Source of the DNA: Limihaloglobus sulfuriphilus
GTDB lineage: Bacteria > Planctomycetota > Phycisphaerae > Sedimentisphaerales > Sedimentisphaeraceae
DNA: 64,000 bases
Assembly: GCF_001999965.1 (NCBI RefSeq)
Contig: NZ_CP019646.1
Coordinates: forward strand, 3,348,001-3,412,000
Direction: 5' to 3'
Position 1 is the first letter of the stretch, and every line of letters begins with the position of its first letter. The notes beneath the pieces are model-generated. The model worked only from the letters and a program-made list of their open reading frames with translations. It was not told the origin of the DNA and ran no database searches. The position numbers were made by a program, and so were the translations under genes. Shown piece after piece: positions 13,205 to 16,963 of this stretch.

Positions 13205-13373
13205 GGGATTTATTATATCTTAGCGCCAAAAAGTTAAAGACCAATAATGCGGTAAACTTTTATCATTTTCCGACAATTCCGTGCACGGCTTTTTATAGTT
13301 AGGCAGATAGCCGCTATTTTGATTGTTATCCGGCCTTCTATAGTTTTTCCATGAGCTGGACTATACTTACGAC

Positions 13374-14822
13374 ATGATAGGGCAGTTGGCAAGTGCCGTG
13401 ATGACTAATATCAACGGCTCTACATGGACTGCCGGTTATAACTATACAAAAGACGGGAATGTTTCCTGTCAGACGGGCAGCAATGCGTCCTTATACAGCT
13501 TTACCGGCGACTTGATGACCGATTTAAACAGCAATACCCTCACCTGGGATGACAACGGAAGGCTGACCGGCGGCATTAACGACAGCTTTACCTACAACCT
13601 TGACGGCAGGCTCAAGACGGGCGGAACCGTCCCAACTGATTATATAGACCTGGCTTACGACCCAATGAACAACCGGGTGTACAAGAAATCCGTTGTGCCG
13701 GGACAGGGTGAGAGCAGCGTTACCACAGAAACCCAATATATCGTTGACATTGTCGGCGGTTTGCCTACAATACTATGTGAGTTTGATCTCGATAACAGCT
13801 CTTTGACATACTCATATATTTACGCCGACTCCCAGGTGCTGTGTCAGCTCAAACACGATAAATACCTTGATGAATACGATGACGATGGGGATAATAGTTA
13901 TGAAGACTATATTATTACCCTCGAAGACAGGCTCTTTTACCTGCATGACCGGCTGGGCAGCATCCGCGAAGTGGTTGATTTTGCCGACATTAATCCTGTT
14001 GACGGTATCGAAGACAGCCCCGTCGTTGTCGCCGGTTATACCTATAACCCCTTCGGCGAGGATTTCAGCAGCGAATGCTTCGAAAATACCGGCATACACA
14101 ACCCCTTCAAATACACCGGCCAGTGGTATGATGATGAGATAGACCAATACTACCTCCGTGCCAGAATGTACGACCCGCAAATGATGCGTTTCACGGGCCG
14201 CGACCCAGTGAGGGGTAAATATGGAGAACCATTAACTTTGCATCGATATCTGTATACTGCTAATGAGCCAATTAATAGAATCGACCCTAATGGTAAAATC
14301 TTTGGGGCAATATGGGGTATGGGTATGCGTGCTAAAGATGCTGCCGTTGGAGTGGGAGTGAAGGCTTGGGCGGCTATGAAAATTAATGCTTTTGGAGCTA
14401 CGGTAAATGCATTAATAAGCGGTGGTGTTAATGCTGCCACTGGGCCAAGTAATTTAAGTTGGGAAACAAAATTTGCAATAGGAGCAAGTGCTGGCTTTAT
14501 AGAATACAACATAGCACAAAAAGCAGGTTTAGGAGTTGCAGGTTCTATAGCCGGAGCATATACAGCATCATTAAATACTTATTTTAGTAATGGTAGCTTC
14601 AAAAGTAAGCGTTTTCTAACAGAAATAGGAATGTCAGTTGTTGCTGGAGGTTTAGGAACTGTTGCCGACAATTTCGTTGAAGAGGGATCACAAGTTATTG
14701 TACCCGGTCTGATAGAACAATTCACCTCACCTGAGAAAATAACTGCTTGGACATTTTCTTTTGATAGGCAGTTTATTACGGGAATGATTGGTGGAATATT
14801 TGGTGATTATGTTGATCAGTAA
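13374..14822 (+). CDS. 5'-truncated Rhs-repeat protein with AT-rich C-terminal tip
   Basis: The frame encodes 482 residues. Residues 1-300 are Rhs/YD-repeat core: YNYTKDGNV, YNLDGRL, YLHDRLGSIREVVD, GQWYDDEIDQYYLRARMYDPQMMRFTGRDP, ending at NRIDPNG. Core-like codons also continue upstream of the ATG (ELDYTYD, from 13353) to an in-frame TAG at 13341-13343, and there is no ribosome-binding site or signal peptide, so this is the 3' end of a once larger rhs gene. From about 14215 base use becomes markedly AT-rich and the sequence changes to a Gly/Ala-rich, partly hydrophobic tip (residues about 305-482) with no toxin motif that I recognise. In Rhs systems such tips are exchangeable toxins, followed by an immunity gene; the next gene fits that place. 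Whether it is still expressed is doubtful. Confidence 0.8.
   Translation: MIGQLASAVMTNINGSTWTAGYNYTKDGNVSCQTGSNASLYSFTGDLMTDLNSNTLTWDDNGRLTGGINDSFTYNLDGRLKTGGTVPTDYIDLAYDPMNNRVYKKSVVPGQGESSVTTETQYIVDIVGGLPTILCEFDLDNSSLTYSYIYADSQVLCQLKHDKYLDEYDDDGDNSYEDYIITLEDRLFYLHDRLGSIREVVDFADINPVDGIEDSPVVVAGYTYNPFGEDFSSECFENTGIHNPFKYTGQWYDDEIDQYYLRARMYDPQMMRFTGRDPVRGKYGEPLTLHRYLYTANEPINRIDPNGKIFGAIWGMGMRAKDAAVGVGVKAWAAMKINAFGATVNALISGGVNAATGPSNLSWETKFAIGASAGFIEYNIAQKAGLGVAGSIAGAYTASLNTYFSNGSFKSKRFLTEIGMSVVAGGLGTVADNFVEEGSQVIVPGLIEQFTSPEKITAWTFSFDRQFITGMIGGIFGDYVDQ
13797..14004 (+). repeat. Rhs core segment, copy A of a 208-bp direct repeat
   Basis: This internal part of the Rhs core is repeated at 15587-15794 with 203 of 208 identical bases. 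The five differences are all in third codon positions and silent (Ile, Val, Phe, Arg, Asp codons). Confidence 0.92.
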
Positions 14823-14846
14823 ATTACATACTTGGAAGACATAAAT

Positions 14847-15470
14847 ATGTTTATTAAAAAGAATAGAATTCGATATTTGTTCGAATGGATTATGACTATT
14901 TATATCAATGCATTCTTGCTCGCTTGGATAGGATCATGCGTCTATGGAATTTGGTATTTTATTAAAATATATAAGTCTTCTGGTGAGTTTTTACTTTTGA
15001 TAGGTATTTTAATTATTGTATCAATGATGGCTTTGCCATTAATACTTATGGTTATTGCATTGTTAAAAGTTAGAAACATGCTCTTAATGCATAAAATAAA
15101 AGTTCATCTTGGACAAAATACGCTTGTCCTCTATCTTGCGGATGACGATACATTCCTTATTCCAATAGAGCAAGTAGACTGTGCTTGGAGAAAGCCATCT
15201 TCTTTAATCCTGTTGGTTTACTACCAAGAAAAAAAATACTGTTTCAGTTTTCCCAAATACGCCTTCGGTGTTAAAGGTTTAAATGAAATTCAAAAATATT
15301 TGAATGAAAATCATAAAATAATTTTGGATCGAGTAATAATTAATCAGAAATCATTAGAATATAATGTTAATAAATTATCTTTGAATAACAGATTAGAATT
15401 TATTATGTCTCCTTTACCCTGGCAGCGAACGAAACGGGGTGAAGTCTCTTTTAACAGCGATGTAACATAA
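14847..15470 (+). CDS. Membrane protein with YcxB-like domain, putative Rhs-tip partner
   Basis: A 207-residue protein. Start chosen at the ATG at 14847, with GGAAG eight bases upstream; a TTG at 14832 is in frame but would precede the GGAAG. Residues about 15-45 and 52-78 are two transmembrane segments. The rest is cytoplasmic and resembles the YcxB-like fold: NTLVLYL...FLIPIEQVDCAW and YCFSFPKYAFGVKGLNEIQKYL. It begins 24 bp after the Rhs tip gene, shares its AT-rich composition, and lies where an immunity gene normally sits. The immunity role is inference from position only. It is followed by a displaced core copy rather than another gene. Confidence 0.6.
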   Translation: MFIKKNRIRYLFEWIMTIYINAFLLAWIGSCVYGIWYFIKIYKSSGEFLLLIGILIIVSMMALPLILMVIALLKVRNMLLMHKIKVHLGQNTLVLYLADDDTFLIPIEQVDCAWRKPSSLILLVYYQEKKYCFSFPKYAFGVKGLNEIQKYLNENHKIILDRVIINQKSLEYNVNKLSLNNRLEFIMSPLPWQRTKRGEVSFNSDVT

Positions 15471-15540
15471 ACTCTTTCAATTAATGTATTTATGCTTAGA
15501 CGCCATCTGCATTTTGAATCTATTATCTGAGAAATACATC

Positions 15541-15568
15541 TTGCGGATTGCCGTAAATCTGTTATAAT
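15541..15568 (+). promoter_or_regulatory. Promoter-like sequence before the displaced Rhs core copy
   Basis: TTGCGG (15541-15546), a 16-bp spacer and TATAAT (15563-15568) lie 19 bp before core copy B. The consensus -10 is clear, the -35 poor. No intact gene follows, so it may be a relic or chance. Confidence 0.3.
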
Positions 15569-15586
15569 ACGAATTATATAAAATAA

Positions 15587-15799
15587 AGCTCTTTGACATA
15601 CTCATATATCTACGCCGACTCCCAGGTACTGTGTCAGCTCAAACACGATAAATACCTTGATGAATACGATGACGATGGGGATAATAGTTATGAAGACTAT
15701 ATTATTACCCTCGAAGACAGGCTCTTCTACCTGCATGACCGGCTGGGCAGCATCCGTGAAGTGGTTGATTTTGCCGATATTAATCCTGTTGACGAATGA
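15587..15799 (+). pseudogene. Displaced Rhs core fragment, copy B
   Basis: 15587-15794 repeats the Rhs core at 13797-14004 (203/208 identical, all five changes silent). It encodes TYSYIYADSQVLCQLKH through INPVD and then hits TGA (15797-15799) in unrelated sequence. It has no start of its own and no tip. Displaced core pieces next to a tip and immunity pair are typical of rhs loci that exchange tips by recombination in the core. Confidence 0.88.
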
Positions 15800-15817
15800 A
15801 AATAACGAATGAAAATA
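15792..15817. repeat. 13-bp tandem duplication at the element boundary
   Basis: ACGAATGAAAATA occurs twice in perfect tandem (15792-15804, 15805-15817), between the end of Rhs core copy B and the first base of the GGGGACAGTTACC terminus at 15818. It looks like a scar of insertion or slippage. Confidence 0.7.
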
Positions 15818-16044
15818 GGGGACAGTTACCAATTTGTTCTTGCATTATGATTTAATTTTGCTATAATTTCGATATGCCACGTAAAGCACGGATAGTTTTG
15901 ACAGGTCAGCCGCACCATGTAACTCGGGGGTAAATGGGGGACAGCTACCCATTTATCACTTGTCTCGGCAGGCCAAAAAAAGAAAATGAAATACAAGAGT
16001 ACGAAAAATGAATAAAAATATAAAATTAATAGGTAACTGTCCCC
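15818..16044. mobile_element. MITE-like, internally deleted derivative of the RAYT element
   Basis: This 227-bp segment is bounded by perfect 13-bp inverted termini, GGGGACAGTTACC (15818-15830) and GGTAACTGTCCCC (16032-16044). Bases 15821-15925 match 16145-16249, the promoter and first 17 codons of the RAYT gene, with one mismatch. Bases about 15963-16044 match the 3' end of the RAYT gene and its right terminus more loosely. The middle of the gene is missing. A variant left end, GGGGACAGCTACCC (15937-15950), lies inside, so two derivatives may be nested. It cannot encode a transposase and would depend on the neighbour's. Confidence 0.75.
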
Positions 16045-16095
16045 TTGTATAATAAATAATAATAGTAGTTTTGTCTTGTTTTGGCAGGGCAGACG

Positions 16096-16125
16096 AGAAT
16101 GGGTCACCCAAGAATGGGTCACCCA
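16096..16125. repeat. Tandem 15-mer containing TGGGTCACCCA palindrome
   Basis: AGAATGGGTCACCCA occurs twice in perfect tandem (16096-16110, 16111-16125). Each unit contains the odd palindrome TGGGTCACCCA. It lies between the MITE-like derivative and the RAYT element. Confidence 0.7.
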
Positions 16126-16163
16126 TACAATACAAAAGGGGACGGACAGTTACCAATTTGTTC

Positions 16164-16191
16164 TTGCATTATGATTTAATTTTGCTATAAT
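16164..16191 (+). promoter_or_regulatory. Promoter of the RAYT gene, predicted leaderless
   Basis: TTGCAT (16164-16169), a 16-bp spacer and TATAAT (16186-16191). Only six bases separate the -10 box from the ATG at 16198, so transcription should begin at or next to the start codon. The same arrangement is kept in the derivative (TATAAT at 15862, ATG at 15874). Confidence 0.55.
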
Positions 16192-16197
16192 TTCGAT

Positions 16198-16893
16198 ATG
16201 CCACGTAAAGCACGGATAGTTTTGACAGGTCAGCCGCACCATATAACTCAACGCGGCAATAACCGGCAGGATGTTTTCTTCGTCGATGACGACTGGAAGG
16301 TCTATCTTGAGCTGCTTGGCGAGCAGTCAGAGAAGTTTGGGCTTGATATTTTATGCTACTGTTTGATGACCAATCACATTCATATTATCGCGATCCCTCA
16401 GGCGTCCGATTCACTCGCCAAGGCTGTCGGCCGGACGCACCTGCTCTATACACAGTACATAAACCGTATGCATCGCCGCAGCGGGCATCTCTGGCAAAAC
16501 CGGTTTTATTCATGTGTACTGGACGGTCGGCACTTGTGGAAAGCGATGCGGTATGTTGAACAGAACCCGGTGCGGGCCCGTATGGTGCGTAAGGCGGGCG
16601 ATTATCCCTATTCCAGCGCAAAGGCGCACCTGGAGAACAGCGACCCTGCCCAGGTACTCGACATGCGGTGGTGGAGAGATAAACGCGGCTCCCGAAACTG
16701 GCGGGGGTTGCTGGAGGAAAAGCTGGATAAGGATTATATCGCCAGACTGCGGCTTTCGACGAGTCGCGGAAGGCCGCTTGTAACCGATTCATTTTTAAGT
16801 AAAATGGAGAAGATAGCAGGCAGACGATTGAGGCCATTGCCGGTCGGACGGCCAAAAAGAACGAAAAAGAAAGACAAGGGTGTAAAAAAATGA
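16198..16893 (+). CDS. REP-associated tyrosine transposase (Y1, RAYT)
   Basis: A 231-residue single-strand transposase of the Y1/IS200-like superfamily. The metal-binding His-x-His is at residues 60-62 (MTNHIHII), and the conserved block WQNRFYS...MRYVEQNPVRA follows, with Tyr119 the candidate nucleophile. The start GQPHHITQRGNNRQ is typical of RAYT proteins. The C terminus is Lys/Arg-rich (RPKRTKKKDKGVKK). The family cuts and joins single strands at REP hairpins and usually occurs as a lone gene flanked by REP sequences, as here. No ribosome-binding site precedes the ATG, in line with a leaderless transcript. It lies in the recombined Rhs patch. Confidence 0.92.
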   Translation: MPRKARIVLTGQPHHITQRGNNRQDVFFVDDDWKVYLELLGEQSEKFGLDILCYCLMTNHIHIIAIPQASDSLAKAVGRTHLLYTQYINRMHRRSGHLWQNRFYSCVLDGRHLWKAMRYVEQNPVRARMVRKAGDYPYSSAKAHLENSDPAQVLDMRWWRDKRGSRNWRGLLEEKLDKDYIARLRLSTSRGRPLVTDSFLSKMEKIAGRRLRPLPVGRPKRTKKKDKGVKK

Positions 16894-16963
16894 ATAAAAA
16901 CGAAAGCCTAATAGGTAACTGTCCCCTATTTAAATCCTATTTACCCTATTTAAATAAGGTTCA

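Follow-up and report, generated by a model that had tools for sequence, protein, structure and literature searches.

The rhs locus studied here carries the same piece of Rhs core twice in one orientation, once inside a core fragment and once behind the AT-rich tip and the membrane protein gene that follow that fragment. It lies in the window, by which we mean the whole 64,000-nucleotide stretch analysed (positions 3348001-3412000 of a closed 3.87-Mb chromosome), and it raises the question of how the second core copy came to its present place. The original prediction, made from the letters of the DNA alone, had read the arrangement as the scar of a tip exchange mediated by the core. The following features were distinguished, with coordinates of the window:

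13344-14216, + strand: module 1, an orphan Rhs core fragment that contains copy A; TIGR03696 match, 45-55% identity to cores of other genera, GC3 0.60
13797-14004, + strand: core copy A inside the module 1 core; 208-bp repeat with 97.6% identity to copy B
14217-14297, + strand: last 27 codons upstream of the tip, with DPNG and foreign composition; GC3 0.185 against 0.605 upstream
14298-14822, + strand: tip, 174 aa, a putative membrane-acting toxin; Gly/Ala-rich, no family match
14832-15470, + strand: partner, a putative immunity protein; start at TTG 14832 or ATG 14847, two long hydrophobic helices and a C-terminal region
15428-15586, + strand: leader of a dispersed repeat (element E); the left end and a promoter-like block are conserved, the middle varies
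15541-15568, + strand: promoter-like motif TTGCGG-16 nt-TATAAT, read from an alignment and conserved in all five element copies
15587-15794, + strand: core copy B, start of the truncated module 2; 69 codons, with a 68-aa ORF from TTG 15593
15817-16935, + strand: REP/RAYT unit downstream of copy B; REP-like GGGGACAGTTACC, Y1 transposase at 16198-16893

The rhs frame is open from 13344 to 14822 and matches the profile Rhs_assc_core (TIGR03696, E = 1.4e-20). An in-frame stop lies at 13341 and the first ATG, at 13374, is already inside the core. Because no start precedes the core, while the homologous frame of several relatives runs far upstream, module 1 is an orphan module and not a complete rhs gene; its N-terminal or export part is absent. 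The border to the tip is marked by a DPNG motif, as in relatives, and a 212-aa membrane ORF adjoins the tip. The locus thus is a unit of Rhs core, tip and partner, as had been predicted. Core DNA has a GC content of 0.49, the stretch 14217-14822 one of 0.39 and the partner gene one of 0.29.

Tip and partner had been described as lying outside the recognised toxin and immunity families, and profile searches agree with this: neither had a meaningful family match in Pfam, NCBIfam, PADLOC or PHROGs, and searches of PDB sequences, PADLOC, PHROGs and Rfam returned no useful match. Among 161 genomes of the order and plasmids, the tip had only matches at E ~0.002-0.005, none of them convincing; where checked, these were transporter permeases and other unrelated proteins. 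The tip consists of Gly or Ala at 50 of its 174 residues and lacks His and Cys altogether. Its single-sequence structure model is helical, unreliable (mean pLDDT 37) and too poor for a fold search. In the partner, the N-terminal part forms two long hydrophobic helices, and the remainder is modelled from the single sequence with low confidence, again too poorly to look for similar folds. The proposal that the partner resembles YcxB did not survive: a Pfam profile search up to E = 10 gave no YcxB (PF14317) match in it. A partner protein from the genome G025 matched PF14317 with E = 0.037, which is below the Pfam cut-off. Candidate homologues of the window's partner at E ~1e-5 to 1e-2 were dropped; those that were checked are N_methyl proteins. 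From position, we infer that the tip is a toxin and the partner its immunity protein. The composition and helical model of the tip, together with the hydrophobic helices of the partner, point to a tip that probably acts on membranes and is paired with a membrane immunity protein.

The 208-bp segment was confirmed at the predicted places, 13797-14004 and 15587-15794, with a spacing of 1790 bp. The copies differ at five positions (2.4%), in copy A coordinates 13820, 13838, 13937, 13967 and 13988. The codon pairs (A/B) are ATT/ATC, GTG/GTA, TTT/TTC, CGC/CGT and GAC/GAT, so that every difference is a silent third-position transition, in line with the earlier description. If substitutions were random, all five would be silent with P = 0.0003-0.005, the range being set by the transition bias assumed; for a copy B made locally from A and non-coding ever since, the same outcome has P ~0.004-0.04. 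Both copies therefore probably diverged while coding, and the prediction of divergence under protein selection is retained at that strength. The same observations bear on a recent local tandem duplication of A without any exchange. Such an event would account for the 97.6% identity, the shared orientation and the distance of 1.8 kb. It would have to produce silent differences only, and to place at the junction a leader that is dispersed over the chromosome and whose other copies share the base of B at 13820, where kept, and at 13838 in the single copy that reaches it. We consider a local duplication very unlikely, in agreement with the earlier rejection of it.

Copy B comprises only the first 69 core codons of module 2 and ends just before the REP/RAYT element. 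The transposase of this unit matches Y1_Tnp with E = 5.5e-13 and REP_Tyr_transpos with E = 1.6e-21, the latter at a bit score below the curated cut-off. Part of the beginning of this unit is present twice, at 15820-15925 and at 16144-16249. REP-like ends related to it, with a shared left-end motif, were seen in several other parts of the chromosome and at two more positions in the window.

The left side of copy B is of a different kind. The ~160 bp between partner and copy B, which include the last ~14 codons of the partner (from 15428), recur at four further chromosomal sites with the same join to core. The additional copies and the isolated left ends are located as follows:

G000:C1:750352, + strand: copy of element E
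G000:C1:2104758, - strand: copy of element E
G000:C1:2105368, - strand: copy of element E, right part only
G000:C1:3515901, + strand: copy of element E
3148544, 1289414 and 750887: left-end stubs of element E

In all five copies AATAA is joined to AGCTCTTTGACATAC or a close variant. The core part of this join is native to rhs, as relatives encode SI.KTYIYANSQILAQ there. To the right of the leader, core extends for 208 bp in the window and for ~21-45 bp (about 45, 33, 32 and 21) elsewhere. The left end is constant in most copies and absent at 2105368; the right end is variable. The promoter-like motif was omitted by a scan for consensus promoters, as its TTGCGG matches at only 3 of 6 positions. 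The leader was not found in 58 relatives, and a pattern scan of a public genome collection found nothing. An integron attC/attI reading of the leader, which often follows a stop codon, was rejected since no attC core sites were seen by eye. The reading of the leader as a general intermodule spacer was likewise rejected: the modules of the other resident rhs arrays lie only tens of bases apart or overlap.

Two of the dispersed copies have a particular setting. At G000:C1:749776-751461, two copies of a 519-bp fragment of an endonuclease/exonuclease/phosphatase gene (L091, 4777-5295 and 5943-6461) are 99.8% identical. The insert between these duplicates contains the 750352 element copy and 45 bp of rhs core, together with a BrnT fragment (E = 2.5e-5) and a small ORF in the brnA position; it looks like a recent single-crossover insertion. 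At G000:C1:3515899-3516127 (L092, 4899-5127), the element copy, promoter-like block included, is directed into a sulfatase-like gene that lies ~30 bp further downstream.

The presence of the same join at four dispersed sites means that copy B inherited its left boundary, which existed before the element spread. The age of the core sequence itself appears to be different. The leader copies diverge from one another by 20-31%. At half of this divergence, a copy B evolving freely ever since the element dispersed would show five or fewer differences in 208 bp with P ~1e-4 or less. Where the bases are kept, other element copies carry the copy-B state, at the equivalent of 13820 in two of them and of 13838 in one. 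We infer that the junction of leader and core B is old while the sequence of core B is young. Because A and B differ by only 2.4%, all silent, against 20-31% among the leaders, the data suggest a renewal of copy B, later than the spread of the element, through homologous recombination with an rhs core under protein selection; this argument presupposes near-neutral evolution of the leader blocks.

These findings allow copy B to be read as the tail of a mobile element. On this view, a small non-autonomous element would have acquired the beginning of a displaced rhs core before it spread, and its source or longest copy would be the one in the window. The junction common to five copies with right ends of different length, the left end standing alone at three further sites and the 750352 copy between its 519-bp duplicates are all in keeping with this. 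However, terminal inverted repeats, target duplications and a helper transposase were not identified for element E, copy 2105368 has no left end, and ordinary duplication could account for the spread. We hold this explanation to be possible, though rather unlikely. A more far-reaching version takes the leader as a mobile promoter cassette that joins the canonical start of displaced Rhs modules. It would give orphan toxin-immunity units their own transcription and spread them or their starts, and the core repeats would be kept homologous by recombination. This we regard as a long shot.

Evidence for the place of a tip exchange comes from base composition. At ~14217 GC3 falls from 0.605 (291 codons) to 0.185 (27 codons), with a Fisher P = 2.7e-5 for a position chosen post hoc. 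This is 26 codons upstream of the end of DPNG; in most other modules the same stretch retains a higher GC3 and the drop comes only at DPxG. Because of this early drop, the tip probably brought the end of its own core along with it. A breakpoint at ~14217, inside the core end, is likely and is a better candidate than the boundary of copy B.

Outside the locus, copy-A-like core DNA in the closed chromosome is confined to the repeat tails and a 39-bp match at 3772149 that has no evident meaning. All other resident rhs loci, the full-length rhs genes included, belong to a different core clade and have no detectable DNA similarity to A. In two of them displaced modules come after a long rhs frame, and in one resident array of the other clade the displaced modules are interrupted by insertion-sequence-like genes (L086; G000:C1:1399000-1417000). 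A full-length rhs gene of the same clade is absent upstream of module 1 and anywhere else in the closed genome, and no usable result came from core searches of plasmids and of the public genome collection. The claim that copy B stems from another functional rhs gene thus finds no support within this genome, nor did the suggested search for other rhs loci with copy B yield one. The silent differences would suit a copy B that was brought with the tip from such a gene and left as a footprint of exchange at this locus. Against this stand the missing donor, the left junction that copy B has in common with four other sites and the position of copy B downstream of the tip, the compositional breakpoint being upstream of it. 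We regard such a footprint as improbable. Of the predicted scar, the core-tip-partner unit and the silent core copies remain, and the boundary of copy B does not, as its junction and ~160-bp leader occur at four other sites.

The layout also occurs in other genera of the order, where tandem displaced cores are common. Related cores were present in 67 of 98 genomes searched (the window's own included), many in tandem, and tandem displaced cores occur in G002, G030, G088, G056, G025 and G019. An array from the same family as the window's genome (L096; G002:C1:1841000-1860900) contains at least ten tandem displaced rhs cores that are as much as 97% alike. The start region of copy B is that of displaced cores in other genera, which begin near the same position (NNGSLERSYIYSGAQP in L097, KTYVYANSQ in L104 and LMEFDNSGSLTRSYVHANAQ in L100). 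The L100 locus of G025, from another family of the order, resembles the window in having a core, a tip, membrane ORFs (three) and a truncated second core with silent differences, the first eight, within 198 bp, being silent without exception. Beyond the 198 bp a short insertion follows, the alignment then gives two replacement changes, and the copy is truncated. Unlike the window, L100 has no leader element, its tip and partners are others, and the second core is interrupted by the insertion. Several other displaced core pairs of the order contain replacement changes, so silent-only divergence is not a rule.

All this makes it probable that the locus is what remains of an array of displaced (orphan) Rhs modules formed by C-terminal displacement. 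The basis for this is the anatomy, the silent differences, the recurrent layout, the canonical start of copy B, the GC3 break at ~14217 and the absent same-clade parent. A circular molecule of core, tip and immunity gene, the presumed intermediate, would integrate by a single crossover with a resident rhs core and leave direct core repeats around tip and partner. Such repeats can also loop out the 1.8-kb unit again. Module 1 would have kept core fragment, tip and partner and would be silent for want of an export part; module 2 would have been reduced to 69 core codons before the REP/RAYT unit. An upstream rhs gene of the same clade is usual for displaced modules and not required; module 1 is stranded, or its parent was lost. 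Because the full-length same-clade gene is absent, the past displacement cannot be reconstructed here. The displacement model accounts neither for the ~160-bp leader that separates copy B from the partner nor for its dispersal, and the other arrays examined have no such leader.

Displacement of tips by homologous recombination with circular intermediates was proposed by Jackson et al. 2009 (PMC2935791). Their arrays and the window share dissociated core fragments of variable length that carry AT-rich tips and small downstream genes, tandem core copies and exchange confined to one core clade. The window differs from them in that no intact same-clade rhs gene lies upstream, the second module is cut before a RAYT unit and a dispersed leader is joined to the second core. 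In Salmonella, Koskiniemi et al. 2014 (PMC3967940) obtained evidence that an orphan had fused to the main rhs gene. The Salmonella orphan rhs-CT/rhsI, too, combines a core-homologous fragment, a tip and an adjacent small gene without the N-terminal export part. It can fuse with the resident main gene through 522 bp of 95% identity, whereas module 1 has no such partner in its genome. As in Rhs proteins with pore-forming tips such as Tse5-CT (PMC10684867), the tip follows the DPxG of the core, and a membrane partner would fit a membrane-acting tip; the two tips have no sequence match, and the likeness in mechanism is putative.

The window fits a stranded, partly decayed example of the known C-terminal displacement of Rhs tips. 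What is new is that copy B is much fresher than its ~20-31% diverged leader, and the rhs-tailed repeat itself, the sole part of the locus left unplaced among known kinds. The locus shows C-terminal displacement, known from Enterobacteriaceae, at work in this distant order as well. An orphan core repeat far younger than the DNA attached to it makes the refreshing of cores by recombination testable in sister strains, and the rhs-tailed repeat could be a route for the spread of module starts.
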